Source: Herbaspirillum sp. 3R11
GTDB taxonomy: Bacteria; Pseudomonadota; Gammaproteobacteria; Burkholderiales; Burkholderiaceae_D
NCBI RefSeq assembly: GCF_004563925.1
Contig: NZ_SPNJ01000004.1
Coordinates: 434,001-498,000 of the forward strand
Length of the DNA: 64,000 nt
Direction of reading: 5' to 3'
Part shown: piece by piece, positions 5,380 to 53,195 of the stretch
How the letters are laid out: every line of letters starts with the position of its first letter
How positions within the stretch are numbered: position 1 is the first letter of the stretch
Notes under the pieces: model-generated
Databases searched by the model: none
Told to the model about the DNA's origin: nothing
The model's input: the letters and a program-made list of their open reading frames with translations, nothing else
Made by a program: the position numbers and the translations under genes

Positions 5380-5451
5380 GTTGTCTCCTGTTGGTGCGGC
5401 AGGAAAATGCCGCGCCGGTGGTTGATGGCGATGTGCTCTTGTGGTTGTTCT

Positions 5452-7613: not shown

Positions 7614-7709
7614 GACAGTCTCCTTTTCCTTTTTTACAGGATAGGAAAAGAGTACTGTCGGCGTCCAACCGCAAATCGGCAAGCAGCGTTCGCCAAACGC
7701 GAACGCTCG

Positions 7710-8672: not shown

Positions 8673-8750
8673 GGAAGGTCGGAGTGGATCGCTTCGGTCA
8701 GTATTCAGCGTGCAGTGTGCCACTACTCCGGCGCCTCTGCTGGCGCGGTA

Positions 8751-10517: not shown

Positions 10518-10892
10518 GTGCCGTTCCTTGCTTTTTGCTTGCTTGTTTTAATGTTTTCCGTCGTCGCGCAAGACACAATGCGACCCGCTGCGAACGGTAT
10601 TCCCCTTGTTGCTTATCGGCTGCCGGGCGCAAAAATTGAAGCGACTGAGCGTGCTTTTTCCCGCGGGCGGCGTCAAGGACGTCTCGGGACATCATTCATG
10701 ACTTGGCGTTATTGCGCAAGGTCCGTGCGCAGGATGAAGAGGGAGGACGACGGAAGTGAGATGAAAGTGAGACGGAAGCGCGACAGATTGGCTGGGCGCA
10801 AGGCTGCGGCGACAGTTCGTTCCGGGCCGAAGCATTCATGGCGCAGACGGTTCTACACTTGCAGCATCGCTTTTTCCCTGAAGGAGTATTCC
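10518..10892. other. Divergent intergenic region between cyclase and VOC gene
   Basis: About 375 bases between two divergent genes. It must hold both promoters. I see no credible gene and no clear operator apart from two TGCGCA words close together near 10713-10735. Confidence 0.35.
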
Positions 10893-11384
10893 GTGGCTAT
10901 AGTCGCTCCAACCGAAATCGGCATGTCCTGCGTCAACATCGACGAACTGATCACGTTCTATGTGTCTGCGTTTTCGTTTTCGCTGGTCAACAAGATCGTG
11001 GCGCCCGCCGTGTCTGACGGCGGCTCCCTCTTTAGCGATGCCGGCTATGCCGTTGCCAGACTGCAGGCGCCGTTTGGCGAGCGGCTGAAATTGCTTGCGC
11101 CGAACAATCCGCCGGTCCATGCGCCCCGATCCAGGTCCGCCGCGAATATTTTGCGGGAGCCGCATGCGGCATTCCTGACATTCATCGTCGATGACATCGG
11201 GCAAGCGTCGCAGCTCGCGCTGGAATGCGGCGCCGCATCCCTGGCTGCGCCCGTCAGGATCAGGCCCGACTTGTGCATTGCGCTGCTCCAGGATCCGGAA
11301 GGAAATTACATCGAGCTGGCGCAGTATGACGACATTTCACTGTACCGGCCGGATCTCGCGTCCGCGCCGGGACGTGTATCGTAG
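10893..11384 (+). CDS. VOC (glyoxalase/bleomycin resistance) superfamily protein
   Basis: Small vicinal-oxygen-chelate protein of 163 aa. The GTG start at 10893 is chosen because AAGGAG lies six bases upstream; the reading frame stays open much further upstream but without family similarity. The N-terminal half has the YVSAFSFSLVNK segment, the usual F-Y-xx-LGF position. The C-terminal half has LLQDPEGNYIELAQY, the classic VOC beta-strand with metal-type Glu. It is followed after 29 bp by an ArsR gene on the same strand, suggesting co-transcription. Such proteins can be isomerases, dioxygenases or drug-binding proteins; the function here is not determinable. Confidence 0.85.
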   Translation: MAIVAPTEIGMSCVNIDELITFYVSAFSFSLVNKIVAPAVSDGGSLFSDAGYAVARLQAPFGERLKLLAPNNPPVHAPRSRSAANILREPHAAFLTFIVDDIGQASQLALECGAASLAAPVRIRPDLCIALLQDPEGNYIELAQYDDISLYRPDLASAPGRVS

Positions 11385-11413
11385 TATCCGACGTCATCTT
11401 CCGGGAATCCGAC

Positions 11414-12118
11414 ATGAATCAACTCGCCCAACCCCGCTTTGCCCGAGTCGCCGCCGTCATCGGCGATCCGACGCGCGCGCTCATGCTGTCGCGCTTGCTG
11501 GACGGTCGCTTCTATACCGCGAAAGAACTGGCCGACCACGCCGGCGTGACGGCGCCCACGGCGTCGCAGCATCTGAAGCTGCTGGTCGACGAGCGGCTGG
11601 CGAGCGTCCGCGCGCAAGGCCGGCATCGCTATTTCATGCTGGCCGACGGCAATGTGGCACATGCGCTCGAGGCCCTGCTGCGCGTGGCAGACGGCAGCTT
11701 GCCGGAAACCACGCGCTGGCAGGCGCCGGCGATGCGCGGCCTGCGCCATGCGCGCAGTTGCTACGGCCATCTTGCCGGCGAGCTGGGTGTGCAGCTGTGC
11801 CGGAGCTTCGTCGAACGGGGCTGGGTCGCAAGCGCTGAAGGCGACGGGCATGACTATCCGTTGACGCAGGCGGGTGTCGCAGGTCTGAAAGAACTCGGCC
11901 TGCCGGCGGAGCTGGTCGATGGCTTGCAGAGTAAGCGAGCACTCTATGGCTGTGTCGACTGGTCGGAGCGACGCGACCACTTTGCCGGCCCGCTGGCGGT
12001 GGCCCTGCTGGATGCGTTCATTGAACGCGGCTGGCTTCGTCGCGATGAAGCCAGCCGGGCCCTGACCGTCACCGCCAGCGGCAAGGCGGTGTTAATTCCT
12101 TCCCTGGCGGTTCGTTAA
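11414..12118 (+). CDS. ArsR-family winged-helix regulator with C-terminal extension
   Basis: Transcriptional repressor of 234 aa, twice the length of plain ArsR proteins. The N-terminal winged helix spans about 10-80, with recognition region TAKELADHAGVTAPTASQHL (37-56). The beta wing is RAQGRHRYF. A C-terminal half of about 130 residues (GLRHARSCYGHLAGELGV onward) is of the kind found in stand-alone ArsR regulators of small-molecule responses. The metal-binding ELCVCDL motif of arsenic sensors is absent, so a metal ligand is unlikely. It follows the VOC gene by 29 bp and precedes a FAD monooxygenase by 254 bp, so it may control either. Confidence 0.9.
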   Translation: MNQLAQPRFARVAAVIGDPTRALMLSRLLDGRFYTAKELADHAGVTAPTASQHLKLLVDERLASVRAQGRHRYFMLADGNVAHALEALLRVADGSLPETTRWQAPAMRGLRHARSCYGHLAGELGVQLCRSFVERGWVASAEGDGHDYPLTQAGVAGLKELGLPAELVDGLQSKRALYGCVDWSERRDHFAGPLAVALLDAFIERGWLRRDEASRALTVTASGKAVLIPSLAVR

Positions 12119-12372
12119 GTATTGCAAGGAAAAAGTCGCGCTCTTGCGCATCCGCTGCCCGGCGGCTATATTACGCACGTCGAAAAAGGCAGACTTGGTG
12201 TGGTCCAGCCCAGGTCCTTCCTCAGGGTCTGTTAACAGGCTTTGGGAAGCTCTGTCCATGCCCGTGCATGAGTCCCACGACGAACATCGGCGCCATCCGG
12301 CGCTTTCTGTTCGTCTGTGCGGTTCTCAAGACAACGAACCGCTCCGGTCGAACGATCACCAGGGAGTCTTTC

Positions 12373-13917
12373 ATGCACGCGTCATCCGTTCCATCCGTTC
12401 TACCCATCCATGATGTAGTCATCGCCGGCGCCGGTCCGGTGGGCTTGTTCCTGGCCTGCGAATTGCGTCTCGCCGGCGTATCGGTGCTGGTGCTGGAGCA
12501 GGCCGGCAATCCGCAATCGCCGCTGAAGCAATTGCCCTTCGGCATGCGCGGCCTGTCCATTCCGACCGTCGAGTCCCTTCATCGGCGCGGCCTGCTGGAT
12601 GCCGTCAAGGCGCCCTCGCCCACTACGAACGCGTCAGCCTCGACTCCGCATTGGCTGCAACAGCAACGGCGCGCCGGCGGCCACTTCGCCGGCATGCAGT
12701 TTTATCTCGATCAGGTCGATCGCGCGAAGTGGCCGACTCACTTATCTGGTCCGGCCGATGCCGGGGTCGCCACCGACATGCAACACATCGAAGCGGTTCT
12801 CGCCGCACGCGCTCACGGGATGGGCGCGGAGATCATGCGCGGCGCCGGCGTGGATGGTGTCGAACAGTTGGATGAGCACGTGGACATTCATGCCGGCGCT
12901 CAGACGTTCCGCGCGCGCTGGCTGGTCGGATGCGACGGCGGACGCAGTACCGTGCGCAAGATCGGCGGCTTTGAATTTACCGGCACCGCACCGGAGTTCA
13001 CCGGCTACTCGGCTGAAGTCGAGTTGGCCGATCCGCAACTGCTGCAGCCGGGTCGCCACTACACGCCCGCGGGCATGTTCACCTTCCAGCCGCCGGGCAC
13101 CATCGCCATGGTCGACTTCGACGGCGGCGCGTTTCATCGCACGCAGCCGATCACGCGCGAACATGTGGAGTCGGTGTTGCGCCGCGTCTCCGGCGTTCAC
13201 GTCACTGTGACGGCGCTCAGGCTCGCCGCCACCTGGACCGACCGCGCCCTCCAGGCTGCGACTTATCGCAAGGGGCGCGTGCTGCTGGCCGGCGATGCCG
13301 CGCATGTCCACTCGCCGCTGGGCGGTCAGGGACTGAATCTAGGCCTCGGCGATGCGATGAACCTCGGCTGGAAACTAGCCGCGACCATTCGCGGCGATGC
13401 ACCGGAGGGCTTGCTCGACAGTTATGAGACAGAACGTCATCCGCTGGGTGCGCAAATACTAGATTGGTCGCGCGCGCAGGTCGGCCTCATGCGTCCGGGT
13501 GAAAGTTCGCGCGCGCTGGCCGCCATCATCCGCGATCTGATCGGCACACGCGACGGCGCGACTTATTTCGCCGAACGGGTCTGGGGCCTGTCGTTGCGCT
13601 ATGAACTCGGTGACAAGCATCCGCTGGTCGGCCGCAGCGCACCGGATTTCATGCTGGCCGACGGCAGCCGGCTCGGCGAGCATCTTCGCGACGGCAAAGG
13701 TTTGCTGCTGGATTTCGGCGCCGATGGTTCATTGCAAACGACGATGCGCCGCTGGCAGGATCGCATCACGTATCTCGCAAGCGATGCCGGCGACAAGCTC
13801 GGCCTGAGCGCCTTGCTGGTGCGACCGGACGGCATCGTGGTATGGGTGAGTAAGGGCGCAGCGGACCCGGAGGATATTGCCCGGGCCGCTACACGCTGGT
13901 TCAAATGTTTAACGTAG
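12373..13917 (+). CDS. FAD-dependent monooxygenase, class A flavoprotein hydroxylase
   Basis: NAD(P)H-dependent aromatic-type hydroxylase, 514 aa. ATG 12373 is chosen because AGGGAG is six bases upstream. The FAD Rossmann motif is [20 protein letters not shown], near 15-34. The second FAD motif is [19 protein letters not shown] at about residues 302-320. A C-terminal thioredoxin-like tail ([12 protein letters not shown]) follows, as in pentachlorophenol, rifampicin and polyketide hydroxylases. The substrate is not known. Its stop codon lies inside the last codons of the convergent autotransporter gene, with the 3' ends overlapping by 9 bases, so there is no space for a separate terminator. 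Confidence 0.92.
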
Positions 13918-16641
13918 CGGCACGTTAATCCCGAACAGGATCGACGAATAGCGCCCCTGCCCGACGTTCAGATTGCTGCTGTAGTCGACGATGAAAGACG
14001 TGCCGCCAGCCAGCAGCAGACGCATGCCGATCCCGGCAGTCCAGTTGCCTGTGAAGCTGTCGTCCGAGCGGATCACGTAGGCCGGCCCTGACGACGCCAG
14101 GTCGGCATACGAAATCCCCGCTTCGCCCGCGCCGGAAAACTGCCGGCGGTATTCGATGCGGCCGCGCGGCGTCCACATGCCGACGCGGCTCAGGTACTGG
14201 CCTTCGGTGCGCAGGCCGAGCGTGCCGCTGCTGGTGCGCACGCTTTGCTTGAAATAGGTCAGCGCGTTGTTGCCGGCGGCAGCTTCGGTGTATTGCCCCA
14301 GCGTGGTCGAGGCCAGGTCGAGCTTGCCGTAGGGTGACCACATCCAGCTATTGCCGCGGAATTCATAACCGCTAGACAGCGCGACGAACATTTGATTGCC
14401 GCCGCGCTGGCCGGTGGCGAAGCTGCCGTCGTCCGTCACATAGCGCGTCGAGTCGAAGTTGAGCGCGCCGTAGCCGAGCATGCCGTCGACGAAAATGTTC
14501 GGCGTCGGCCGGAAGCTGCCGTACACCGTCGCCACCACGCTCTGCCCGACGCTCTTGCTGCCGTTCTCGCCGATGTCGCTGCGGTCGCGGCTGTAGCCGG
14601 TGCCGACGCCGATGGTCAGCTGATCGCTCAGACGATAGTCGGCACCCATGCTGATGCCGTTGGTGGCGAAGCGGAAACCTTCCTGCTGGCCATTGGCGTT
14701 GCGCTGCCCGAAGTCGACCGTGCCGGCAATCCACAACGACAGTTCCTGTTTCGCGTTATTGGCGGTCTTGTTCGGCAATTCAGGCAAGGCGTCGAGATCC
14801 TTGCCGGCGCCTGCAAGCGGCTTCGCGTCGGACTTGCCGACCTGACTCAGCAGCGGCCAGCCCACTTTGCGCATGCCCGCCTGCAACGGTGCACCGACCA
14901 CGCGATCGACTTCGTCATCGTTCCATTGCGCCAGCAGCGGCTTGGCCGGTGCGACCGGCTGTGCAAACCCGAGACCGAAACTGGAACGCGCCCAACCGTC
15001 GCCGTGCAGGCTTTCCAGACGACGACTGAAGTTGCCCAGCTGTGCCGTGGCGAAACGGCTGGCGGTCTGTCCATGTGCTGCGACCAGTCCTTTGACCTGG
15101 ACATCGTTGGCGGCATTGGGGCGTGCGGCGACGGTGATGTTCACGATGACCGCTGCGGATGTACCGAAGGCATTTGTCAGCGTATAGCTGAACTGCACGC
15201 TGCCGCTGAATCCTGCCGCTGCCGTATAGATGATGTCGGTGCCGCTCACTACCGCGGTGCCGGATCCCGGTGCGCCGGTAATCGTGACGGCCGTGACCGG
15301 GCCGTTGGCGGCAGCCGCGCCGACATGCAGCGTGACGGCTTGCCCGGCTTGCACGGTAGCGGTTTGCGCCGCCGAAGTCGGCGCGCCCGGAGACGTCACG
15401 GTGACGGTCACCGTGGCCGGCGTAGAGGTGCCGCCCGGTCCGGTGATGGTGTAGGTGAAGCTGTCGGCGCCGACATAGTTGGCGGCAGGCGTGTAGAGCA
15501 CGTTCAGGCCGTTGACGACGGCTGTGCCGTGCGCAGGTGCGCCTGCCGAAACCGTGGTGATGGACCCGCTATCGTTGGCAGTCACCGGAATCGTCACCGC
15601 CTGATTCGCCGGCGTGTTGGCGCTGTCAGCCGCTGTAACCGGAACGCCGGCGCTGACGGTCAGCGTGAAAGTCTGCGCCTTGAGGATCGGTGCCGGCGTG
15701 CTGCTGTCGGTTGCCGACGCCGTCACGGAAAAACTTCCCGCCTGCGTCGGCGTACCCGAGATCGTCGCACTCGAAGATGTTGTGGAGAAGGTCAATCCCG
15801 CCGGCAAACTGGTCACCGTGATGGCGCCGTAGGGTGCAGCGCCACCGCTCCAGGTGAGCGTCTGGGTATAGCTTGCACCCTGCGTCGCAAACCATGTCGT
15901 TGATGGCGTAATCACGATCGTCGGCGCGCCGACAGTGATGATGACGGTCGCCACGCCCGAGGTGCCGATAGCATTGGTCGCCGTGTAGCTGAAGGTATCC
16001 CCGCCGCTGTAGCCGGCGGTCGGGGTATAGGTAAATGCGTTGACGCCGTTGGGTGTTGCCGTGCCGTGCGCCGCCCCCGTCGTGATGCTCAGGGAGGTCG
16101 GGGTGCCGCCGGTAATCGACACCGGGATATTGTTATTGCTGCTGCCGTAGCCGACCGCCGTACCGCTGTTGGCGGTCACCGGGGCACCCGCACCGACGGT
16201 GCCGATGAACGCTTGCGCACCGGTGAAATTGTTGCTGTCGGTGGCGGTAATCGTGAAAGAAAATCCACCGGCGACGGTAGGCGTCCCGGAAATGGCGCCG
16301 GTAGCTGCCGTGAGGTTCATGCCTGTCGGCAACGCGCCGCTGGTGACTGCGTACGTATACGGGGCAGTGCCGCCGCTGGCAGTCGCCTGCAAAGTGAGAG
16401 CAATGCCGCGCTGCCAGTTGGCCGCCCCCATCGACACCGCAATCGTCGGTCCGACCGCATAGGCCGGATTGAACCAGCTCGCCGGCATCAGCAACAGGAG
16501 TGCCGTCGTCAACGCGACGACACTTGGCCATGCTGCTTTTGCCGCGATGCGTACACGTCGCCAAAGTGAGTTCAATACCGAGGTCAATAGCGGCGACGAA
16601 AGAAAGCGACGTGCGACGCCGTTGGTACCGAGTTGAAACAT
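13909..16641 (-). CDS. Autotransporter with Ig-like (He_PIG/cadherin-like) repeat passenger
   Basis: Type Va secreted surface protein, 910 aa from ATG 16641, chosen because GGGGGGA lies three to four bases upstream; an ATG at 16677 has no ribosome site. An unusually long signal region (about 62 residues; basic [12 protein letters not shown], then the hydrophobic [13 protein letters not shown]) ends near PAYA. The passenger (63 to about 520) is a string of Ig-like repeats: [18 protein letters not shown] and [17 protein letters not shown]-like units, alternating with [13 protein letters not shown]-type units. A linker of about 110 residues leads into the outer-membrane beta-barrel (about 630-910) ending in FGINVPLR. 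It is likely an adhesin or structural surface protein. It lacks the usual terminal aromatic residue. Confidence 0.9.
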
Positions 16642-41925: not shown

Positions 41926-42498
41926 ATGGATACCACCGCTCAAAAGTCCTGCTGTTACTGGCTCACAGGTTTGTCCGGGGCTGGAAAATCAACGATCGCA
42001 AACCTGATCGATGAAACTTTGCGCGCTCAGGGCTATCGATCCTTTGTGCTGGACGGCGATCAATTGCGGCTTGGGCTGAACAATAATTTGTCGTTCACCA
42101 AAGCTGACCGATCAGAAAACGTGCGTCGCATCAGCGAAGTCGCCAAGCTGATGGTAGAGGCCGGCCTGGTTGTTGTTGTAAGTGCAATTTCCCCATATGA
42201 AGATGATCGCCAGGCGGCCAGGCGGCGTTTTCGCAATGACGAATTCTTCGAGGTGTTCATCGATACGGATATCGAGGTCTGCATGGAGCGAGATCCGAAA
42301 GGATTGTATCGGCGGGCCAAGGCAAAGGAGATTACACACTTTACAGGCGTAGATGATCCCTACGAACGACCGACTCATCCTGAATTTCTGATCGGTACCG
42401 ACCTGCTTTCAGCCAGGGCGGCAACTGATCAAATCGTTAAGCATTACCTCGCGCTGAACACATCAACGGGAGTACAGCCGGGTCGCAACGTTCGTTAA
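41926..42498 (+). CDS. cysC: Adenylyl-sulfate kinase (APS kinase)
   Basis: Phosphorylates adenosine 5'-phosphosulfate to PAPS, the sulfate donor for sulfotransferases. 190 aa, a complete stand-alone CysC. The P-loop is GLSGAGKST (15-23), the APS-binding region DGDQLRLGLN (43-52), and the lid region is KADRSENVRRI. The phosphoserine-free active-site segment AISPYEDDR follows. No cysD/cysN or sulfate reduction gene is nearby. Many betaproteobacteria reduce APS directly, so a lone CysC makes sense mainly as a PAPS supplier. A PAPS-using sulfotransferase lies 3.8 kb downstream on the same strand with only an autotransporter gene between them. Confidence 0.95.
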   Translation: MDTTAQKSCCYWLTGLSGAGKSTIANLIDETLRAQGYRSFVLDGDQLRLGLNNNLSFTKADRSENVRRISEVAKLMVEAGLVVVVSAISPYEDDRQAARRRFRNDEFFEVFIDTDIEVCMERDPKGLYRRAKAKEITHFTGVDDPYERPTHPEFLIGTDLLSARAATDQIVKHYLALNTSTGVQPGRNVR

Positions 42499-42687
42499 CG
42501 GCAGGGCGTGAATCAGCGGGATGACATCGTTTTTGCAGCAAATCAATAAATGATGGTAATACTCCACGCAATTCATTGGTTTAGGGTATGTGTCTTCTGC
42601 GTAACATGCCTATATCGCGGATGACTGTTGGGATACAACGAATTCGCTGCGGAGACGTAATTAACTCCCTCGTAGAAGGGTATCGAT

Positions 42688-45600
42688 ATGAAATATCCCG
42701 GATCCATGAACCATGTATACCGCCTGGTCTGGAGTGAAGTTCAGGATGAATGGGTTGCGGTCGCCGAGGTTTCGCGCGGAGGCGGCAAAGGACGCAAGCG
42801 TGTTCTCACCATCCTGATTGCGGCGACGCTGGCAAATACAGCCGTGGCTGCTCCTCCGGCCGGAGTGACCGTCAACGGGGGCACCGAAGGTGTGGAATAC
42901 ACATTCGACGCGAGCTCGCCGCAGAACATGACGGTGTCAGCGCCTATCAACACGAGCGGCGTCACCGCCATTGTCACCGACGGCACAGCCACACTTGGCA
43001 CGCTGACCAATGATGGCGTCATCAACAGCACCGGCAATGTCTACGGCGTCAGCCAAGGTGGCGCGCTGGGGACACTGACCAACAACGGCACCCTCAGCGG
43101 CGGCAACACTTCGGGAGGGGGGGCGCTCAACAACACCGCCGGCATCGGCACGCTGACCAATAGCGGCGCCATCAGCGGCACTTACTATGGCATCAACAAC
43201 TCCGGCACGATCACGACACTGACCAACGACAGCGGCAAGACCATCAGTGCCACCGACGGTTCAAACGGGGTGGCAGTCAACAACAGCGGCACCATCAGCA
43301 CGCTGAACAACAGCGGCACCATCAGCGCAACTCAATCCGGTATTGTCAATGCTGGCACCATTACTACGCTGCTCAATAACGCCAGCGGTGCTATCAACGC
43401 GAGCAACAATGCCATTGTAAATACCTTCGGCGGCAGGATAGATGCCCTGACCAACGACGGCACCGTCGATGGCGGTAGTAACGCCATCTTCAACCACGGC
43501 TCCACCGGCGGACCGAGCAACGCCGTGATCGGTACGCTGACCAACAATGGCACCATCAATTCGGCCGGGACCGCCATCACCAACGACGGTATGATCACTA
43601 CCCTGGTCAACAACAGGACTATTTCGGGTGGATTTGTCGGCATTTCCAACGACCTGTCAGGGACGATAGGCTCGCTGATCAACAATGACACCATCAGCGG
43701 TTCGCCCAGCGGGCTGAGAGGCGCGGGCATCGTTACTGGCGGCAGCATTGGCAGCCTGCTCAATAACGGCGCCATCAGCGCCGATGCAATCGGCATTCTC
43801 GTCAATTCCGGCGGCGCGATAACCGGACTCACCAACAACGGCACCATCAGCGCCAGCGAAACAAACCTCAGCAATGCCAGCACCACATTTGTATTAACTC
43901 GTTTCGGTATCAGTAACGGCGGCACGATCAGCACGCTGACAAATTTGAATACCCGGGTCATCAGCGGCAGCGACACAGGGCTCAGCAACACCAGTACGAT
44001 CACCGCGTTAGGCCATATCGGCCTGAACAATACCAGTGCGATCGGTACCGTGACCAATAGCGGCATCATCAGCGGCAGCAATACCGGCTTCGTCAACAGT
44101 GGAACGGTCACCACGCTGAACAATACCGGCCTCGACAACTCGGGGACGATCACTGTGCTGACCAATGACGGCACCATCAGCGGCAGCGACTCCGGTCTCA
44201 ACAACACCGGAGCAATCGGTACGCTGACAACTGCTGGCATCAACAACACCGGGACGATCACCGCGCTGAACAATAACGGCACAATCAGCGGCAGCAATAC
44301 GGGTCTCACCAACACGGGAACAATTACCACGCTAACCCCTACTGCCGGTATCAACAACGCCGGCGCCATCAATGCGCTGACCAATGCCGGTACCATCAGC
44401 GGCGGCGATATCGGCATCAATAACACCGGCACGATAGGGCCGCTGACCAACAGCGGCACCATTACCGGTGCCGTCAATGCTATCTACAATGACACTGCCG
44501 GCGCGATCGGTCCGATTACGAACTCCGGTGTGGTTGCCGGCAATATCCAGAACCTCAGTACGCAGAATCTGACCTTCAATGGCGGCACCGGTACGACCTT
44601 CGGCACCCTGACGGGTTTTGGCGGCGGCAGCACGATCGGCACGATCACCAACGTCAACTCGAATATCATATTCGGCTCAGGCAACCTGCTGCTGAACGAC
44701 AACATCAACGTCGGCGTCAACGCGGTGAACAATACCGGCACCGCTGTGCTGCAGGTCAATCAGCCGGTGATCATCACCGGCAACTACAACCAGGGGGCCG
44801 GTGCAAGCCTGCAGATCGGCGTCGCCGCTGGCGCCACAACGTTGGGCGCGATCACCGACACGGGCTACGGCAGATTGATCGTGACCGGCGACACCACAAT
44901 TGCCGCAGGCTCATCAATACGACTGCAGTCAAACGGCTATGCCTTCGCCGCCGGACAGCGTTACGTGGTGGTGGATACCGCCGGCACCGCCAACTACAAT
45001 GCGGACACGCTGCGTTACTCGATCAATGGCAATTCAGGCACCGTGACCGGCTCGGTCGTCGCCAACGGCGCCAATAGCGATCTGGTGCTCAACGTACAGG
45101 GCGTCGCGCCAACGCCAGAATTTGCGACTGCACCGAATGCCATTGCGTCTCTCCGCGGTTTGTTGCGCTACACCGGTATCAGCAATGCCGGGCTGCTGAA
45201 TCTATACAACGCCACACTGGGTTCGCTAAGCCAAGGTTCGGTGGCGAGCGCCAATCGCATCGGCAAACAATTGGCGCCTGCCCAGGCCAACTGGGCGCCA
45301 GACGCGCCTTTCTTTCATGCTCTGGACATGGTGGGCGAACACGTTGACGGACTTCGGCGCGCGGAGGACGGCGGCGACGACGGTGTCGCAACCGGCGAAA
45401 GTGCAGTTCAGCGGACCATATGGGGCCAGGCCTATGGCGGCCATGCGCGCCAGAGTGAGCGCGATCAGGTGGATGGCTATGGTGCCAATTACAGCGGTCT
45501 GCTATTTGGGGTGGATCAGGCGATCAACGACGGTTGGCGCGCCGGCGGCGCGTTCAGCTACAGCAATACCGCGATCAACAATACGGGGGACACCTCCGGC

Positions 45601-46251
45601 AGCGACACGCGCGTCGACGGCTACGGTTTGATTGCTTACGCGAGTTATGACGGTAATCCTTGGTACGTGAAATACTCCGGCGCAGCGGTGCAGCAGCGCT
45701 ACAAGACTCGCCGGGCGATCAGCCTCCCGGGATTTTCAGACTCGGCTTCGGGTAGTTTCAACGGCCGGCTGTATGTGGCGCGTGCCGAGGCCGGCTATCC
45801 GCTGGCACTGGGCAATGCAACACTCACGCCGCTTGCCGGCCTCATGTATAGCTACCGGACGCAGGCCGGCTACACGGAGAACAGCAGCAACGGCGCGGCC
45901 CTGGCGGTGAGCTCCGCGCATGCCGGCTCTCTGAAAAGCGCACTGGGCGCAAAACTGGAGCAGGACTTCACTACCAGCTACGGCAAACTTGTATTGAGTG
46001 GCCGTGCGCAGTGGATCCATGAATATCGCGACACCCGGCAGACGGTGGGCGCCAGCTTTGTCGGCGACGCCACCGGACAGACAGCGTTCACGACGGTGAG
46101 TGCATCGTCGGTGTCGAACCTCGCAGATATTTCACTTGGCGCCACGCTGCAGCGTTCCGACAATCTGAGCCTGGCGCTGCGCTACGATCTGCAGGCCGGC
46201 CGCGGCTTTTTGTCGCAGACAGCGTGGCTGCGCCTGCGCAAGCTGTTCTGA
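42688..46251 (+). CDS. ESPR-type autotransporter with Asn/Thr-rich beta-helix passenger
   Basis: Type Va surface protein, 1187 aa. The extended signal peptide region begins MNHVYRLVWSEVQDEWVAV (from residue 7; an ATG at 42706 is an alternative start), then GKGRKR and a hydrophobic core ending near AVAAPP. The passenger (about 60-640) consists of degenerate repeats of about 20 residues of the form IGTLTNNGTISGS-TGLNNTG, rich in Asn, Thr, Ser and Gly and poor in Tyr. A PATR-like segment follows to about 900. The C-terminal barrel (about 908-1187, from QRTIWGQAYGG) ends in LRKLF with the terminal Phe. It is flanked by cysC and a sulfotransferase gene, suggesting post-translational modification. 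Confidence 0.94.
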   Translation: MKYPGSMNHVYRLVWSEVQDEWVAVAEVSRGGGKGRKRVLTILIAATLANTAVAAPPAGVTVNGGTEGVEYTFDASSPQNMTVSAPINTSGVTAIVTDGTATLGTLTNDGVINSTGNVYGVSQGGALGTLTNNGTLSGGNTSGGGALNNTAGIGTLTNSGAISGTYYGINNSGTITTLTNDSGKTISATDGSNGVAVNNSGTISTLNNSGTISATQSGIVNAGTITTLLNNASGAINASNNAIVNTFGGRIDALTNDGTVDGGSNAIFNHGSTGGPSNAVIGTLTNNGTINSAGTAITNDGMITTLVNNRTISGGFVGISNDLSGTIGSLINNDTISGSPSGLRGAGIVTGGSIGSLLNNGAISADAIGILVNSGGAITGLTNNGTISASETNLSNASTTFVLTRFGISNGGTISTLTNLNTRVISGSDTGLSNTSTITALGHIGLNNTSAIGTVTNSGIISGSNTGFVNSGTVTTLNNTGLDNSGTITVLTNDGTISGSDSGLNNTGAIGTLTTAGINNTGTITALNNNGTISGSNTGLTNTGTITTLTPTAGINNAGAINALTNAGTISGGDIGINNTGTIGPLTNSGTITGAVNAIYNDTAGAIGPITNSGVVAGNIQNLSTQNLTFNGGTGTTFGTLTGFGGGSTIGTITNVNSNIIFGSGNLLLNDNINVGVNAVNNTGTAVLQVNQPVIITGNYNQGAGASLQIGVAAGATTLGAITDTGYGRLIVTGDTTIAAGSSIRLQSNGYAFAAGQRYVVVDTAGTANYNADTLRYSINGNSGTVTGSVVANGANSDLVLNVQGVAPTPEFATAPNAIASLRGLLRYTGISNAGLLNLYNATLGSLSQGSVASANRIGKQLAPAQANWAPDAPFFHALDMVGEHVDGLRRAEDGGDDGVATGESAVQRTIWGQAYGGHARQSERDQVDGYGANYSGLLFGVDQAINDGWRAGGAFSYSNTAINNTGDTSGSDTRVDGYGLIAYASYDGNPWYVKYSGAAVQQRYKTRRAISLPGFSDSASGSFNGRLYVARAEAGYPLALGNATLTPLAGLMYSYRTQAGYTENSSNGAALAVSSAHAGSLKSALGAKLEQDFTTSYGKLVLSGRAQWIHEYRDTRQTVGASFVGDATGQTAFTTVSASSVSNLADISLGATLQRSDNLSLALRYDLQAGRGFLSQTAWLRLRKLF

Positions 46252-46268
46252 GCTGTTCTAAGCTGTTT

Positions 46269-48365
46269 ATGCCTCTTATGTCCACCTTACCCGATCAGAC
46301 AATCCTGACTATTGCAGAAGCAGTCAGCCATGCCCATGCCCACTGGAACGCCGGTCGTGCGGATCAGGCTGGCCAGCTCTGCCGCCAGGTGCTGGTCGTC
46401 TGGCCGGGTCATGCCGATGCGCTGCATCTGCTGGGCTTGATGGCGCTCGCGCAGGGGCAGCTCGATACGGCAATTACGCATCTGCAGCAGGCGTGCATGG
46501 ATTCCAGGGCACCTGCGATCTATTTCAGCAATCTCGCAGAAATGTACCGCCGCAAAGGACTGCTGGCCGATGGCGAGGCAGCGGCCCGTCAGGCCGTGAC
46601 GATGGACCCGGAGCAGACGTCCGGTTGGAACAACCTGGGTATCCTTCTGCAGGAGGCGGGCAAGTTTGAAGAGAGTCTCGACTGCCTTGAGCGAGCGATC
46701 GCGCTCCGGCCCGACTGGGCGCAGGCGCATAACAATCTGGCCAACACTTACCGCCGTCTGGGCCGGATGGATCGCGCTGCGCAGCACTATCGGCAGGCGC
46801 TTGCGCTGCTTCCTTCCTATGCAGAGGCGCATAGCAACCTGGCCTTCCTGTTGTCCGCGCAGGGCGTTCACGATGAAGCCGTTGCGCATGCTCAGCAAGC
46901 CATTGCCATCGAACCCCATTTCATCGATGCCTATCTGAACCTGGCTGACGCGGAAATTTCTCGCTGTCGTCATGACGCGGCATTGCGCGCACTCGACCTG
47001 CTTTCCGCCTTTGCGCCTCAACATCCTGCCTCGCTGATTGCACGCGCTAAGGCGCTCAACCGGAGCGAGCGCCTTGACGAGGCGCTCGGTTTTGCGCGCC
47101 AGGCGGTGGCCTTGGCGCCTGGTAACGCCGAAGCGCACCACACGCTCGCCATGGTGCTTCAATCTTTGGGACAGACTGAAGAGGCGCTCACGCAATTCGA
47201 CCAGGCGGCGCAACTGCCGGGTACGGTCGCCGAGGCGGCGCTGGTCGGACGCGCCGTTCTGCTCACTGAAGCCGGCCGCAACGACGAAGCAGGCGCAGCC
47301 TTTGAACAGGCGCTCAAAGCCTTCCCGAGGTCGGTAAAGGTGCTGGCCGGAAGGGCCGACGCCAGGACATTCAGAGCCGGCGACCCTGATATCGGTACCC
47401 TGGAAGATTGTGTCGCCGAAGGCGAGCGCAGCTCTTTGTCCGATCGGATCTCGGCCCATTTCGCACTCGGAAAGGCCTATCTTGACACCGGGGATGCGGC
47501 ACGGGCGTTCCATCATCTCGACCAGGGCAACCGACTCAAGCGCGCGACGTTTTCCTATGATGCCGATGCGATCAGTCGCTGGGTGTCGGACATTGAAAAA
47601 ATCTTCACGCCCGAACTGTTCGAGAGAGCAAGCGACAGTCATGCAGGGTCGGCATTGCCAGTTTTCATCGTCGGCATGCCACGCTCAGGGACCACGCTCA
47701 TCGAGCAGATCCTGTCGTCGCACTCGCAGGTGACTGGCGCCGGCGAGTTGTCGGCGCTACGCTTGGTCACAGAGAGCGCCGGGGCGTTCCCGGCCAGCGT
47801 TGTCAACATGACAGAAGCGGACTTTGCCGGGCTGGGACAGGCATACCTGCAACGTACCGAAGTGCTGGCGCAAGGGCGTGCGCGTCTGGTGGACAAGATG
47901 CCGGGGAATTTCATGTATGCAGGATTGATTCCGCTGATACTGCCGGGCGCACGTATCATTCACGCCCGGCGCAATCCGGTCGACACCTGCCTGTCGTGCT
48001 ACACCAAGCTGTTCGCCGGCGAGCAGCCATTCGCCTATGACCAGTCCGAGCTGGGGCGATTCCATAGCGACTATGAGCGCCTGATGACGCACTGGCGCGC
48101 GGTGCTGCCTCCCGAGCGTTTCATCGAAGTCGACTATGAGGCCGTAGTTGACGACCTGGACGGCGAGGCGCGCCGTCTGATCGCCTTCCTTGGTTTGCCC
48201 TGGGAAGATGCCTGCCTGAGTTTCCATGACAATCGCCGGGTCGTGCGCACGGCCAGCGTCAATCAGGTGCGCCAACGGATCTACAAAACTTCGAAGGGGC
48301 GCTGGCATGCTTACGCAGCCCATCTTGAACCGCTGCTCAAGGCGTTGGAGATCGATACGCCATGA
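46269..48365 (+). CDS. TPR-repeat sulfotransferase
   Basis: Soluble 698 aa protein. The N-terminal half (about 20-430) is built of tetratricopeptide repeats, e.g. GWNNLGILLQEAGKFEESLD and AHNNLANTYRRLGRMDRA. The C-terminal part (about 460-698) is a PAPS-dependent sulfotransferase of the Sulfotransfer_3 type. The 5'-phosphosulfate loop is VGMPRSGTTLIEQIL near 466, and the 3'-phosphate site is HARRNPVDTCLSCYTKLF near 563. The TPR arm is likely to hold a protein or peptide substrate, as in TPR-containing glycosyltransferases. No signal peptide, so it acts in the cytoplasm. It starts 18 bp after the autotransporter stop. ATG 46269 or 46278 may be used; neither has a clear ribosome site. Confidence 0.92.
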   Translation: MPLMSTLPDQTILTIAEAVSHAHAHWNAGRADQAGQLCRQVLVVWPGHADALHLLGLMALAQGQLDTAITHLQQACMDSRAPAIYFSNLAEMYRRKGLLADGEAAARQAVTMDPEQTSGWNNLGILLQEAGKFEESLDCLERAIALRPDWAQAHNNLANTYRRLGRMDRAAQHYRQALALLPSYAEAHSNLAFLLSAQGVHDEAVAHAQQAIAIEPHFIDAYLNLADAEISRCRHDAALRALDLLSAFAPQHPASLIARAKALNRSERLDEALGFARQAVALAPGNAEAHHTLAMVLQSLGQTEEALTQFDQAAQLPGTVAEAALVGRAVLLTEAGRNDEAGAAFEQALKAFPRSVKVLAGRADARTFRAGDPDIGTLEDCVAEGERSSLSDRISAHFALGKAYLDTGDAARAFHHLDQGNRLKRATFSYDADAISRWVSDIEKIFTPELFERASDSHAGSALPVFIVGMPRSGTTLIEQILSSHSQVTGAGELSALRLVTESAGAFPASVVNMTEADFAGLGQAYLQRTEVLAQGRARLVDKMPGNFMYAGLIPLILPGARIIHARRNPVDTCLSCYTKLFAGEQPFAYDQSELGRFHSDYERLMTHWRAVLPPERFIEVDYEAVVDDLDGEARRLIAFLGLPWEDACLSFHDNRRVVRTASVNQVRQRIYKTSKGRWHAYAAHLEPLLKALEIDTP

Positions 48366-48394
48366 ATAAGTTGAGCAATCATTTGGGGGAATAC

Positions 48395-49546
48395 ATGCGC
48401 AAAGAAAAAGCCAGATCCATTTTATTTCACGCGACGATCATTTTTCTCTCGATCACCCTCGGCATGACAACGATCGCATCGGCAACAGAGCCTGAGCAAA
48501 CTGCGCTGGTTGGCGTGATTGGTCCTGTCAGCCAGCCACGCTGGAAATCCACGCTCGATGGCGTGCAGTTTGCCGTCGAGCGGATCAATCAGCAGGGGCT
48601 GCGCATCGACGGCAAGAACACCATCCTCAAACTGCTCATCATTGACGACAAGAACGACAAGAACCTCGCCGTTCTTGGCGCCCATGCCGCCGTGAAAGCA
48701 GGCGTCGTTGGCGTGATCGGACACCTGACCACCGATACAAGCATCGCGGCTTATCCGGTCTACAATGCCGCCGGAATTCCTCAGTTGTCACCGACGGCGG
48801 CAGGACGGGAATTCACCCAGAAAGCTTACGGCAACGTGTTTCAGATGCTCGGACACAGCGGCCACACCGGTCAGTATCTGGCTCTGGAAGCGACCAAGAC
48901 CCTGCATGCGCAGCGCATCATGCTGGTCGATAACAATACTGTTCTCGGACGAGAGCTTACGGCCAGCTTCGGAGCTGCCGTGACCAGCGGAGGTGGAGTG
49001 ATCGTCGACAGTGATCGGATCAGCGCCAAGACCTCTGATTTCAACGCAACCATCGCCAAGATCCAGCAGGCCAAGCCCGACCTGATTTTTTTTGCGGGAG
49101 TCAACCCGCAAAGTACCGCCTTTGCCGTCCGTTTGCAGCAAGTCGGTGTGCGTGCAAATCTGTTGTTGGCAGGCGGCGCGACCAATCCGGAATTTCCCGA
49201 CAATACCGGCGACTACCCTGAAGGAACGTTGATGTTGGCAGGAGGGAGGCCCGTCGATAAAGCTCCTGATTTCAAGCGTCTGGAGAAAAGCTACAAAGAG
49301 AAATTCAGCTCCCCGTTGATTCCTTTCACTTGGTTCTCCTACGATTCGGTGAGCGCCTTGATCGAAGCCATGAAGCTTGCAAACTCAATTGAGCCAAGCC
49401 AGCTTTCAGTCGCCTTGCACAAGATTCAATTCAAGGGCATGTCAGGGACCGTTGCCTTCACTTCTGACGGCAGCGCGCAGTATCAGGCATACACGCTATA
49501 TCTTGCCCAGCAACGCCGTTGGAAAGTTATCAATACTTTGCCATGA
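48395..49546 (+). CDS. Branched-chain-amino-acid-type periplasmic binding protein (LivJ-like), orphan
   Basis: Type I periplasmic binding fold, 383 aa. ATG 48395 is chosen because GGGGGA sits four bases upstream and the resulting N-terminus, MRKEKARSILFHATIIFLS, is a proper signal peptide. ATG 48362 would overlap the sulfotransferase stop by four bases. The mature part has ALVGVIGPVSQPRWKSTLDG, GVIGHLTTDTSIAAYPVY and GIPQLSPTAA, all LivJ-like. No Liv permease or ATPase genes are adjacent. It closes the cysC/autotransporter/sulfotransferase run, so it may be a sensor or scavenger linked to it. The ligand is unknown. Confidence 0.9.
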   Translation: MRKEKARSILFHATIIFLSITLGMTTIASATEPEQTALVGVIGPVSQPRWKSTLDGVQFAVERINQQGLRIDGKNTILKLLIIDDKNDKNLAVLGAHAAVKAGVVGVIGHLTTDTSIAAYPVYNAAGIPQLSPTAAGREFTQKAYGNVFQMLGHSGHTGQYLALEATKTLHAQRIMLVDNNTVLGRELTASFGAAVTSGGGVIVDSDRISAKTSDFNATIAKIQQAKPDLIFFAGVNPQSTAFAVRLQQVGVRANLLLAGGATNPEFPDNTGDYPEGTLMLAGGRPVDKAPDFKRLEKSYKEKFSSPLIPFTWFSYDSVSALIEAMKLANSIEPSQLSVALHKIQFKGMSGTVAFTSDGSAQYQAYTLYLAQQRRWKVINTLP

Positions 49547-49941: not shown

Positions 49942-52900
49942 TTACCACCACCAACGCACGCCCACGGAAGCACTATAGCTGGCATACGCTTTGCCGGTGA
50001 CCACCGATAGTTGTCCGAAGGCGCTGGTGGTGTCGTTGATCGCATAGTTCAAGCCGCCGCTGACGACAGCTTCATCGCGTGCCTGGGCGACACCGCGTAC
50101 AGTGAAGTCGAACGCGCTGGCATTGGCGAAAGCAAGCTGCATCGTTTCGGCGTTGTTGCCCAGACGATGGCGCCATGCCAGATCGGTTTGCCATCCCAGC
50201 GGTGATCCGGCGACAGGCATGCGGCGCAAGCGAACGCCGAGGCTCGCAGAGGTTTGGGTGCTGTTGCTTGCACGATAAGCCAGCGCCAAGGCGTCGTTGC
50301 CGCTTTCAGTGGTCTCCGTATAGGCAGGACGATGCAAGCGCGCCACCGAAATGGCTGCGTAGGGTTCTACGGTCAGCGTCGCCATTGGTAGCGCCATACC
50401 CGTTTCGGCATACATGGCAAGACTTTGCACGTTGAATTGTCCGCGCGTCTGGCTGCTGAGAGCACCAGCCGATACCTGGCGATACTGCACGTTTTTCCAC
50501 CAGCCGTAGCTGACAACGCCTTTGAAGAAGACATTCGACGCGTCCGGCCGATAGCGCACATACATCGCAGCCTGGCCACCGTCGCTACGTCCGCCGCCGC
50601 CGGCATCGGTATAAGACAGCGAGTCCGCATTGGCAGTGAAGGCAAGACCCAGCAACCAGTTCGACGACAATGCATGATCGTGGCCGAATGCAAAAGCAGT
50701 TGAATGGTTGCGATAGCCACTGGCGCCCGAGCTGCTGCTCGACTGGTTTTGCTGACTGATTGAGGTACTGATCCAGGGATCTGCATCAACCGTGGTTGCC
50801 GACCCGGCCACGGTTGCGTCAACCGCTGCCAGGCGTTGCCCGATGGCCGCGTTCCCCTGATTTATATTGGCAACGGCATTCACGGAAGCGGCGCCGGCTG
50901 TATCGCCGCTCAGACTCGCCAGGTTGCGTTGGGCCTGCGCATCGGAAGCACCCAGCAGATTGGCAGTGACACGATTGCCACCGGCAGCATAGATGCGGTC
51001 CAGGGCGTTGGCCACCGCCTGCTGATTGGAGGAGCCTGCATACGAACCAAAGCCCTGCGACTGGAATCCGGCATTGCCGACCAGTTGCACGTTAACGGTA
51101 TTGCTGCCGTAACTGACGACGGGGACCAGATAGGCAAAATTGTTGGTGATCGTACTGAAGGTCCCGCTGCGCGTGCCGCTGTAGCTGGCGACGGTGTAGC
51201 TGCTGCCATCGCTGTAATTGCCGCTGCCGGCGACCAGTCTGAGCGCGCTGCCGCTGGCGAGGTTGAGATTGCCGTTGACCGTCAATTGACCTGAATTCCC
51301 CGGTGCGACTCCCAGCGCCACAGCGTAGGTGGCCCCGGCGCCGATACCGAGGTTGCCATTGACGTGCAGACCGCTGCCGAGGGTAGTGGACGCGAGCGTG
51401 GCGCCGCTGCCCAAGGTCACTGCACCTACTGTGCCGCTGCCGAGCAAGGTGGCGCCGTTCAGTACAGATATTGTTCCCGCAACCGTGCCATCAACCTGCA
51501 GCGCTCCGCCATTGATTGTTGTCGTGCCGGTGTAGGTATTGGTGCCGCTCAGGATCTGGGTGCCACTGCCGGTTTTAGTGAAGCCGCCGGCGCCGCTGAT
51601 AGTTCCGCCGAAAATCGTGTTGCTGTTGTCACCGCCCGCAGTCAGCGTGCCCGTGCCCAGCGTGACCGTACCGGTCCCAGCCAGCGAAGCGACGCTCTGG
51701 TCGTATCCGTTCAGATCAAGCGTTCCGAACGATAAGACCGTCATCGCGCTGTTGGCTGAAAAGGTATTTGCACCGCCAGCCCTTAAGACTATTGATTGCA
51801 CTTCAGTGGCCCCACTGTAAGTGTTCGCGCCGGTCAAAGAAACCACGTTCGAGCCGTCGAAGCTGACTGATCCGCTGCCGGAAATATTTCCGGCAAGGGC
51901 GAATGGAGTTGATGCAACGAAGGATAATTGCGCGCCGCTTCCAACGATGAAGTTATTGCTCAAGCTGACGATGCCGCTGTTGACAAGGATGTTCGCCGCA
52001 GTTCCTCCCGTTAATTCGATATTGCCCGTGATGATGGTGCCGCTGGACAGTATTAGCTGGGCGCTGGATCCGGTAAAAAGAATGGCGTTGGCGCGCGTCG
52101 TTCCGTCCCCTGACATACCCCCGGTGATTGCACCGGAATTCTGGATCAATACACCCGTGTCCGCTATGATGCCGGCGCCACCGAGGGCGTTCCCGCCGCC
52201 ACTTCCACCGGTGATTTGTGCCCCAGCCCCGTTGTTGATGATGACGAAGGGACCGGCCCTGACGCCGGCGCCGCCGCTACCGCCAGAGCCACCCGAGCCC
52301 GAGCCCGCATCGCCACCGGTTCCGCCAGTGATCGTTCCGAAGTTGAGGAGGAGACCCGACGTCGACAATACGGCGCCATCGCCACCGCCACCGCCACCGC
52401 CGGCGACAGTGCCGCTGCCGCCATTGCCGCCAGCCCCGCCGCGGACAATCCCTCCGGTGCGAACACTGACAGTACCCCATCCGGTGTTCGATAACAGACC
52501 GGCACCGCCGCCGCCGCCGCCGCCTGCCGTGGGGTTGTCCCCGCCGTTACCACCAGCACCACCGCTCACGCTCATCAGGTTCGAAGCCGTCCCCCCCGCC
52601 CCCCCAATCAGGTACAGCCCGGCGCCGCCGCCGCCTCCACCGCTCCCCCCTGGTCCACCATTTTGCCCCGCGCCACCGCTAATCGGCGTAGCCGAGTTCA
52701 TGCCAAGCCACACCGTTGCTCCGAGAGCGCCGCCACCACCGCCGCTTCCTCCCCCTCCGGAACCGCCCGTGCCGTCGGAGGCCGAATCCGCCCCTCCATT
52801 GCCGCCACTGCCATTGCCAGCGCCGCCGTTTGGCAAACCACCGTCTGCCCCCGCCGCCCAGACGCCTTGCGAGCCCAGTAAGTTGATTGTCAAGGTGCTC

Positions 52901-53007
52901 AATACAGCGAGCAGGAGAGGCGCCATGCGCCATTCATCAGGACCTCGTTTCGACTGACTTTTTGTATTGTTGCGTGAAGGTGTGACGCGCGCGTTCATAG
53001 TTGTCAT
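49942..53007 (-). CDS. Autotransporter with glycine-rich passenger and PATR repeats
   Basis: Type Va secreted protein, about 1021 aa from ATG 53007 (MTTMNARVTPSRN; ATG 52998 is equally possible, and upstream frames look non-coding). A long basic N-region precedes the hydrophobic LLLAVLSTLTINLLG and cleavage near VWAAG. The first passenger part (about 45-260) is extremely Gly-rich (repeats such as GGAGGNGG). Then come PATR units, e.g. GAGGFTKTGSGTQILSGTN and TINGGALQVDG, that form a beta-helix. The barrel (about 740-1021) ends in VRWWW with a terminal aromatic. It is divergent from a NarL-type two-component system that may control it. Confidence 0.92.
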   Translation of the reverse strand: MTTMNARVTPSRNNTKSQSKRGPDEWRMAPLLLAVLSTLTINLLGSQGVWAAGADGGLPNGGAGNGSGGNGGADSASDGTGGSGGGGSGGGGGALGATVWLGMNSATPISGGAGQNGGPGGSGGGGGGAGLYLIGGAGGTASNLMSVSGGAGGNGGDNPTAGGGGGGGAGLLSNTGWGTVSVRTGGIVRGGAGGNGGSGTVAGGGGGGGDGAVLSTSGLLLNFGTITGGTGGDAGSGSGGSGGSGGAGVRAGPFVIINNGAGAQITGGSGGGNALGGAGIIADTGVLIQNSGAITGGMSGDGTTRANAILFTGSSAQLILSSGTIITGNIELTGGTAANILVNSGIVSLSNNFIVGSGAQLSFVASTPFALAGNISGSGSVSFDGSNVVSLTGANTYSGATEVQSIVLRAGGANTFSANSAMTVLSFGTLDLNGYDQSVASLAGTGTVTLGTGTLTAGGDNSNTIFGGTISGAGGFTKTGSGTQILSGTNTYTGTTTINGGALQVDGTVAGTISVLNGATLLGSGTVGAVTLGSGATLASTTLGSGLHVNGNLGIGAGATYAVALGVAPGNSGQLTVNGNLNLASGSALRLVAGSGNYSDGSSYTVASYSGTRSGTFSTITNNFAYLVPVVSYGSNTVNVQLVGNAGFQSQGFGSYAGSSNQQAVANALDRIYAAGGNRVTANLLGASDAQAQRNLASLSGDTAGAASVNAVANINQGNAAIGQRLAAVDATVAGSATTVDADPWISTSISQQNQSSSSSGASGYRNHSTAFAFGHDHALSSNWLLGLAFTANADSLSYTDAGGGGRSDGGQAAMYVRYRPDASNVFFKGVVSYGWWKNVQYRQVSAGALSSQTRGQFNVQSLAMYAETGMALPMATLTVEPYAAISVARLHRPAYTETTESGNDALALAYRASNSTQTSASLGVRLRRMPVAGSPLGWQTDLAWRHRLGNNAETMQLAFANASAFDFTVRGVAQARDEAVVSGGLNYAINDTTSAFGQLSVVTGKAYASYSASVGVRWWW
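52150..52900. repeat. GC-rich low-complexity tract coding for the Gly-rich passenger
   Basis: On the plus strand this stretch is dominated by GCC/CCG/CCA triplets, the complement of GGC/GGT glycine codons. Short imperfect 3-, 6- and 9-base repeats run throughout. Such tracts expand and contract in frame, and they create long false open frames on the other strands. Confidence 0.8.
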
Positions 53008-53195
53008 TCCGTTTATTATCCTGACAAGGGTATGCCGGCGACAAACTGGGATAACGGCGCGTGTCGCAGCGATCCAGCCAAGCAGACGTAAAAACGTGAT
53101 GCTGACATCCTGTCTGCGCGCCCACAATCCTTGAAAATAGGTAGATTGCGACAGTGTCCTGGACACCAGAAGCCCCCAGAAGCTCCTGCGGTGGC

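Follow-up and report, generated by a model that had tools for sequence, protein, structure and literature searches.

A stand-alone APS kinase, an ESPR autotransporter and a TPR-sulfotransferase as a candidate adhesin-sulfation module in Herbaspirillum

A 64,000-nucleotide stretch of the genome of Herbaspirillum sp. 3R11 (contig NZ_SPNJ01000004.1, positions 434,001 to 498,000; hereafter the window, whose own numbering is used for its features) carries, in a row, a stand-alone cysC gene for an adenosine 5'-phosphosulfate (APS) kinase, a gene for a large autotransporter, and a gene for a sulfotransferase with a long tetratricopeptide repeat (TPR) arm. We propose that they form a dedicated module for the sulfation of a surface protein secreted by the type V route, on its passenger or on a sugar carried by it, in the cytoplasm before export; we put the probability of this reading at about 0.6. 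CysC would convert APS, supplied by the housekeeping CysDN, to 3'-phosphoadenosine 5'-phosphosulfate (PAPS), and the TPR arm would grip the passenger of the adjacent autotransporter while it is still unfolded in the cytoplasm. A head resembling tyrosylprotein sulfotransferases (TPST) would transfer sulfate from PAPS to passenger hydroxyls, either Ser/Thr of the repeats or sugars placed by a glycosyltransferase, and the decorated, more acidic passenger would then be exported via Sec and its own β-barrel. We infer that the enzyme is active, that it acts on the passenger, which group accepts the sulfate and that this happens ahead of export, from the gene order, the domains, the fold of the model, the intact catalytic positions, the recurrent linkage, and the co-occurrence of cysC with the enzyme. 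The recurrence of the pairing in distant bacteria and on plasmids suggests that bacteria sulfate some surface proteins before export.

All three genes had been named in an earlier note made from the sequence, and all were located on the plus strand where that note had placed them. The cysC gene (41926..42498, +) encodes a stand-alone APS kinase of 190 aa (PF01583, APS_kinase, E = 4e-62), the candidate PAPS supply. It passes TIGR00455 with 224.5 bits against a cut-off of 138.7, shows no CysN fusion, and is the sole convincing APS kinase in the 5.2 Mb genome, the runner-up match reaching 20.9 bits. After a spacing of 189 bp follows the autotransporter (42688..46251, +; 1187 aa; PF03797, PF13018), the proposed substrate. 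This protein has the build of a classical (type Va) autotransporter, with an N-terminal extended signal peptide region (ESPR; residues 7–52, 42706..42843, +, PF13018, E = 3.5e-9) as export signal and a C-terminal β-barrel domain (residues 911–1167, 45418..46188, +, PF03797, E = 8e-60). The TPR-sulfotransferase (46269..48365, +; 698 aa; PF13469 plus many TPR models), the putative cytoplasmic modifier, begins 18 bp after the autotransporter stop; this previously noted gap holds for the ATG at 46269, and an alternative, longer frame with a GTG start runs from 46224. Its Sulfotransfer_3 match (PF13469, E = 4.5e-47, residues 464–647) scores 161.5 bits against a cut-off of 27, covers profile positions 1–216 of 216, and is the only one in the genome. 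The protein is 98% identical to a copy in Herbaspirillum sp. alder98.

The predicted structure of the sulfotransferase combines a TPR superhelix resembling that of O-GlcNAc transferase (OGT; residues 15–365, 46311..47363, +) with a TPST-like head (residues 459–698, 47643..48362, +). The TPST fold is present in the head of the model, whose closest relatives in both fold and sequence are the eukaryotic TPST1/2, at an identity of just 18%; structural matches of the arm are common to many unrelated proteins. OGT has a similar arm but a head of different chemistry, and TPST1/2 are Golgi enzymes that are not known to carry TPR. Across 22 homologues (the window enzyme and 21 others), R472–G474, E493, D542–P545, R568, S576 and T661–S663 are invariant. 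The roles of the conserved catalytic and PAPS-binding positions are assigned by us from knowledge of TPSTs, and the PRSGTT motif (residues 471–476, 47679..47696, +), which contains the invariant R472, S473 and G474, is taken to be the PAPS loop by analogy with these enzymes. The heptosyltransferase domain that characterizes the bacterial autotransporter heptosyltransferases (BAHT) was absent, TPR models and PF13469 filling the protein, and no glycosyltransferase appeared among the best 25 of 28 Pfam and the best 25 of 29 NCBIfam matches. Very probably, the protein is a sulfotransferase that depends on PAPS and has a cysC of its own to supply it.

The distribution of APS kinase was compared with that of the enzyme in 27 genomes of the genus. 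A kinase (E < 1e-50) was detected in eight of them (G000, G059, G116, G207, G216, G275, G281 and G287), exactly those with an intact close enzyme, and in none of the 19 without one; the probability of this match by chance is 1/C(27,8) = 4.5e-7, a figure that ignores shared ancestry. In all eight, at most 4 kb separates the kinase gene from the enzyme, and in G207, where there are two such loci, each has its own cysC gene. Cases of cysC within 5 kb of the enzyme number 13 loci, and outside the genus 15 of 17 genomes have a strong kinase match. In L007, no cysC was found in the 22 kb read, and the genome's copy lies in a 664-aa frame. In a phylogenetic tree, the window cysC is placed outside the clade of the other Herbaspirillum-locus cysC genes; the idea of its separate recruitment was dropped because a single clade is compatible with the approximately unbiased (AU) test (p = 0.374).

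To place the locus among its relatives, sulfotransferases were sampled from 294 genomes of the same family, 399 of the order and 398 of the phylum, together with a scan of species genomes, and up to 22 kb was read around each. All family, order and phylum genomes with a match at E ≤ 1e-100 were read, and weaker matches in part (80 stretches, one of which, of 3.4 kb, went unused, plus 45 loci from the species-genome scan). The analysis covered 118 loci, ranked on a single blastp bit score. Conserved synteny elsewhere, put forward earlier as a check on the module, was found: the enzyme is paired with an autotransporter in five of the six best plasmid records and in 17 of the 30 loci scoring at least 400 bits, where a barrel gene lies within 1 kb, versus 4 of the 88 loci below that cut, which was chosen after viewing the bins. 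By bin, linkage amounted to 8/10 from 700 bits up, 3/7 at 450–700, 6/13 at 400–450, 1/9 at 350–400, 1/27 at 300–350, and 2/52 under 300; the four linked loci below 400 bits are L172, L099, L096 and L097. Left out of the 118 were L006 (a second locus from the same assembly as G207) and L085 (the third sulfotransferase of G207), both of which adjoin an autotransporter, as well as L049, L050, L095, L160 and L162, which gave no sulfotransferase domain match. L089 (G116), adjoined by only a weak barrel fragment, was scored as unlinked.

Counted by genome, pairing occurs in 16 of the 28 family, order and phylum genomes with a match at E ≤ 1e-100, and a rough gene-count estimate gives a chance expectation of about 0.06 for the 23 genomes with autotransporter counts, to which all 16 belong. 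Two metagenome-assembled genomes, which we take to belong to Desulfobacterota, each contain, as far as assembled, a single autotransporter, and it is the one adjoining the enzyme. On the strength of the gene-count comparison and of these two cases, a chance neighbourhood of enzyme and autotransporter was rejected. Gene order and direction differ between loci. In a tree of 153 sulfotransferase domains, autotransporter linkage requires 11 changes, compared with at least 22 in 200 shuffles; linkage is clustered among related enzymes, yet spread beyond one lineage. Four more of the 30 close loci have another type V neighbour: a two-partner secretion (TPS)-domain protein adjoining the enzyme in L150 (with ESPR) and L152 (without ESPR), an ESPR protein with a ShlB-type transporter next in line in L153, and an ESPR protein with masked parts in L168. 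By a local profile, ESPR was detected in 2 of 16 autotransporter-linked genomes and was on this count rejected as a general part of the module; in L091 it lies in an adjoining frame. Genome G207 has three close TPR-sulfotransferases, two of which (L084 and L085) flank a pair of autotransporters at G207:C11:968500-998900, and the other, of window type, is on another contig.

The arm also occurs with a different head. Directly after the sulfotransferase, seven Herbaspirillum-type loci and L007 carry a gene of 387–392 aa with TPR and a weak match to GT9, the heptosyltransferase family, of which only the L007 match exceeds the Pfam cut-off. A search of solved structures with this glycosyltransferase-like head returned no relative, so its class rests on the weak GT9 matches; assignments used the head alone, TPR cross-matches inflating whole-protein counts. 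The same head is found within double sulfotransferases (L091, L092, L094 and L151), where both head kinds share one polypeptide and three of which adjoin an autotransporter; L093 also matches it, though the border there is unclear. A glycosyltransferase-like head replaces the sulfotransferase in L160 and L162, on an arm 50–51% identical to that of the window enzyme over about 250 residues. The L160 frame ends 71 bp upstream of an autotransporter frame, and no autotransporter was found around the L162 gene. Since the arm stays by the autotransporter while the head differs, the passenger is pointed to as what the arm holds. Two genus genomes (G264 and G174) retain the glycosyltransferase-like gene after decay of the sulfotransferase, and the window has the sulfotransferase without that gene, so the two chemistries appear to be usable apart. 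G292 retains a glycosyltransferase that resembles the module's at 80%, and none of the window query proteins was found in the 19.5 kb around it. The TPR and glycosyltransferase-like gene of L162 is convergent with a sulfatase gene (L162 8964-12830).

Of the 30 loci at or above 400 bits, 13 carry a gene for a lipoprotein of the alpha/beta-hydrolase fold no more than 6 kb from the enzyme, versus 2 of the 88 others (L096 and L097, which are also autotransporter-linked). Such lipoproteins or hydrolases are encoded at L083 12252-13079, L149 7963-8790, L151 11066-11920, L171 14833-15705, L096 5306-6235 and L237 11078-11947; they accompany type V-linked sulfotransferase loci in two phyla, and the gene is absent from the window locus. 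Our guess is that the hydrolase removes or transfers a group on the surface protein. Tentatively, and at somewhat less than even odds, we picture a mobile mix-and-match system in which OGT-like arms grip type V passengers and bear interchangeable TPST-like or GT9-like heads, sometimes fused, with a dedicated PAPS supply in hosts that have none of their own and the lipoprotein hydrolase as a frequent partner.

Plasmids carry the locus as well: 29 plasmid records match the enzyme, of which the best six were read. Enterobacter sp. 638 and Lelliottia amnigena carry in a row the sulfotransferase, a TPR gene that bears a glycosyltransferase annotation, and the autotransporter, and Kluyvera ascorbata has the same row with a small reverse open reading frame between the latter two. 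The order in Thalassospira marina is autotransporter, sulfotransferase, alpha/beta hydrolase and TPR gene annotated as glycosyltransferase, and in Pacificitalea manganoxidans autotransporter and sulfotransferase are divergent; the Methylovirgula plasmid has no autotransporter by the enzyme. The glycosyltransferase label of these TPR genes reflects sub-threshold GT9 matches. These enterobacterial hosts produce PAPS for assimilation, and no cysC was found in the stretches read of the enterobacterial plasmid copies. The Enterobacter locus (Ent638_4265-4267 on pENT638-1) is of the same kind as that of the window, its sulfotransferase being 56% identical and accompanied by a TPR gene with a glycosyltransferase-like head and an autotransporter, but unlike the window locus it has no cysC in the 20 kb read. 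A search of E. coli genomes with the plasmid enzyme DNA gave no match. The Enterobacter sp. 638 copy was described in 2010 as two TPR proteins beside a hemagglutinin-related autotransporter, a locus thought to aid root adhesion and assembly (PMC2869309); the main text of that article, the part considered here, contains no word beginning with 'sulfo'.

The passenger itself fits the earlier description as rich in Asn, Thr and Ser and poor in Tyr, with contents of N 13.4, T 15.8, S 9.5 and G 17.0% and 13 Tyr among 818 residues. Tyr 167 and Tyr 600 are consecutive tyrosines, so that a repeat region of 432 residues without Tyr (residues 168–599, 43189..44484, +) forms the candidate acceptor region. 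A variant of the module in which tyrosine is the acceptor, as in TPSTs and RaxST, and the few C-terminal passenger Tyr are sulfated would suit a head closest to TPST1/2 in fold and sequence, and a precedent exists in RaxX of Xanthomonas, described as a sulfated-tyrosine peptide made with RaxST. TPST acceptor tyrosines sit in acidic surroundings, however, and only 1 of the 13 window Tyr has at least two acidic residues within five positions, the median being 0 over 25 linked passengers. The long Tyr-free region argues in the same direction, as does L171, with just 3 Tyr in a passenger of 554; L172, with 22 of 46 Tyr in an acidic context, is an exception. Since Tyr in an acidic context is almost absent from the passengers, we favour Ser/Thr or sugar hydroxyls as the probable acceptor, though the head is most like a tyrosine enzyme. 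Judged from these sequences, tyrosine is unlikely to be the main acceptor.

Several observations weigh against a dedicated module that sulfates type V proteins. Nine of the 30 close loci have no type V protein adjoining; among these are L169 and L170, which start at a contig edge, L149, with an autotransporter 2.7 kb off, and L007, which has the closest enzyme (72%) beyond the immediate species. In the species scan, loci at E ≤ 1e-100 show pairing in 2 of 16, besides L006. No glycosyltransferase gene neighbours the window locus; the closest relative encoded in the genome is 38% identical and located elsewhere. The S, T, N, G and Y contents are alike in linked and unlinked passengers, both in a first set (21 versus 12, rough domain border) and in a second (25 versus 19, best barrel border), the unlinked passengers being hand-picked from the autotransporter listing; L009 and one L095 piece (too short) and the Pacificitalea protein (no barrel match) were dropped from the second set. 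With respect to the donor, G020 has an intact enzyme and no APS kinase found in a 94% complete genome, G1021 has an intact enzyme and a weak kinase match (4e-14), and the shared ancestry left out of the kinase–enzyme probability belongs here too. Among other features of these sets, Asp is slightly lower in linked passengers (p = 0.049, first set), and the motif NxG[TSI][IL] is commoner in them (0.96 versus 0.42 per 100, p = 0.012), an exploratory result for a motif chosen post hoc with several features tried. In L007, no cysC was found in the 22 kb read, and the genome's copy lies in a 664-aa frame.

Less probable than a tyrosine acceptor is a role of the enzyme in sulfating lipopolysaccharide, exopolysaccharide or a lipid-linked sugar, with the autotransporter as a co-working neighbour, for example in root attachment. 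This would agree with the 84 of 88 distant TPR-sulfotransferase loci that have no autotransporter within 1 kb, with a plasmid copy (H5) that adjoins urea-transport genes, and with the AMP-binding enzymes near four loci. On the other hand, no polysaccharide gene was among the seven scanned window proteins around the locus, the linkage persists through altered gene order and in two phyla, and a similar arm with a glycosyltransferase-like head adjoins an autotransporter. The H5 and AMP-binding neighbours also bear on linkage to a small-molecule pathway elsewhere, which the earlier note would have counted against the module: these cases are on record, and they answer the point in part, neighbours having been checked for part of the loci, by first residues, rather than annotated throughout. 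The AMP-binding enzymes are encoded at L099 7932-9338, L150 10980-13103, L152 5371-6807 and L153 6233-8269.

That the protein is catalytically idle and serves the autotransporter as a TPR chaperone or in its assembly, the function proposed for the Enterobacter sp. 638 copy, is most improbable. L096 and L097 do keep arm and place with the catalytic motifs lost, but the catalytic positions are intact in the window enzyme and in the 21 homologues aligned with it, and within the genus a PAPS supply accompanies the intact enzyme. Three genus genomes with remnants of the locus (G258, G264 and G174) have no convincing cysC. In G258, the match carries a stop and extends no further than residue 284, within the TPR arm; the autotransporter there is split in two. 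G264 and G174 have kept the TPR part and the autotransporter neighbour and lost PRSGTT, the DKMP lysine and RTAS; the GEL acid is lost in G174 and retained in G264. Enzyme and donor supply have disappeared together, which is what one would predict for a PAPS-dependent enzyme and a cysC devoted to it alone. That cysC is an ordinary assimilation gene with neighbours acquired by chance was rejected: the gene is common (11 of 14 control genomes), but 19 of the 27 genus genomes have no convincing APS kinase, cysC lies inside the locus in all eight that have it, and the housekeeping CysH of the window genome carries a CC...CxxC signature, which we take to mark an APS reductase, so that cysC should be dispensable for cysteine assimilation.

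The proposed sulfation module shares features with several known systems. BAHT enzymes are cytoplasmic and encoded beside their substrate; in the Rax system, RaxP/RaxQ provide PAPS and RaxST is not known to have a TPR arm; and the aryl-sulfate sulfotransferases of Sutterella presumably differ in family from the window enzyme. BAHT enzymes such as TibC decorate autotransporters such as TibA and AIDA-I (PMC4358343, PMC3835316). The window enzyme resembles them in gene adjacency (18 bp here; 17 of 30 loci), whereas its head has a sulfotransferase fold and it comes with its own APS kinase, so it is not a BAHT; some relatives of the window locus carry a GT9-like head. HMW1C modifies HMW1, a two-partner secretion adhesin (PMC3012730), and thus offers a case of a type V adhesin modified by a dedicated enzyme, with sugar there and sulfate proposed here; relatives of the window enzyme, too, adjoin TPS-type proteins. 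In Xanthomonas, the sulfotransferase RaxST is encoded with the exported polypeptide RaxX (PMC6637879), a 60-residue precursor with a putative type I exporter, RaxAB (PMC4216712). Aryl-sulfate sulfotransferases have been reported in Sutterella (PMC10932419).

A literature search, with most subscription journals outside its reach, showed among the matches listed no report in which an autotransporter or any other type V protein is sulfated. To our knowledge, only sugars are known as a modification in type V secretion, and sulfate would be a new chemistry among modifications of these proteins. If the mix-and-match picture is true, sulfated adhesins would constitute a widespread, unrecognised class of bacterial surface protein. 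Sulfation of a large adhesin would also offer a testable reason why proteobacteria have many genes annotated 'TPR repeat-containing sulfotransferase' and why a stand-alone cysC occurs in organisms whose cysteine synthesis needs no PAPS. We hypothesize that sulfate on a plant-associated adhesin could set binding or plant sensing, as RaxX does for a peptide. Because nature has already removed catalytic motifs along with cysC in some strains, the prediction is sharp and cheap to test.

A fourth gene in the interval, unmentioned in the earlier note, encodes a substrate-binding protein of the branched-chain amino acid type (48362..49546, +; PF13458, Peripla_BP_6, E = 9e-39) and overlaps the sulfotransferase stop by 4 bp; it is likely on the same transcript. 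Among the loci read, the window and L006 are the only two with such a gene next to the enzyme, the one further match, in L035, lying apart, and it was on that basis rejected as a general part of the module. No permease or ATPase gene was seen beside it. Promoter and terminator scans gave no more hits than shuffled sequences (2 versus 3.3 and 8 versus 8.1). Convergent with the module lies a second autotransporter of 1074 aa with a Gly-rich passenger (49942-53166, -), which has no barrel match at the matching place in L006 and seems to be a variable neighbour.

Two further loci place such an enzyme beside other large proteins. In L014 (3877-10830), the genes divergent from a TPR-sulfotransferase encode a DUF4402 protein and a protein of 941 aa; the latter looks usher-like by eye and has profile matches only to SdrD_B and CarboxypepD_reg. 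In L019 of Kiritimatiellae (4509-14954), a TPR-sulfotransferase lies between a 1764-aa protein without a Pfam match and an ABC exporter with an HlyD gene, a possible type I secretion counterpart.

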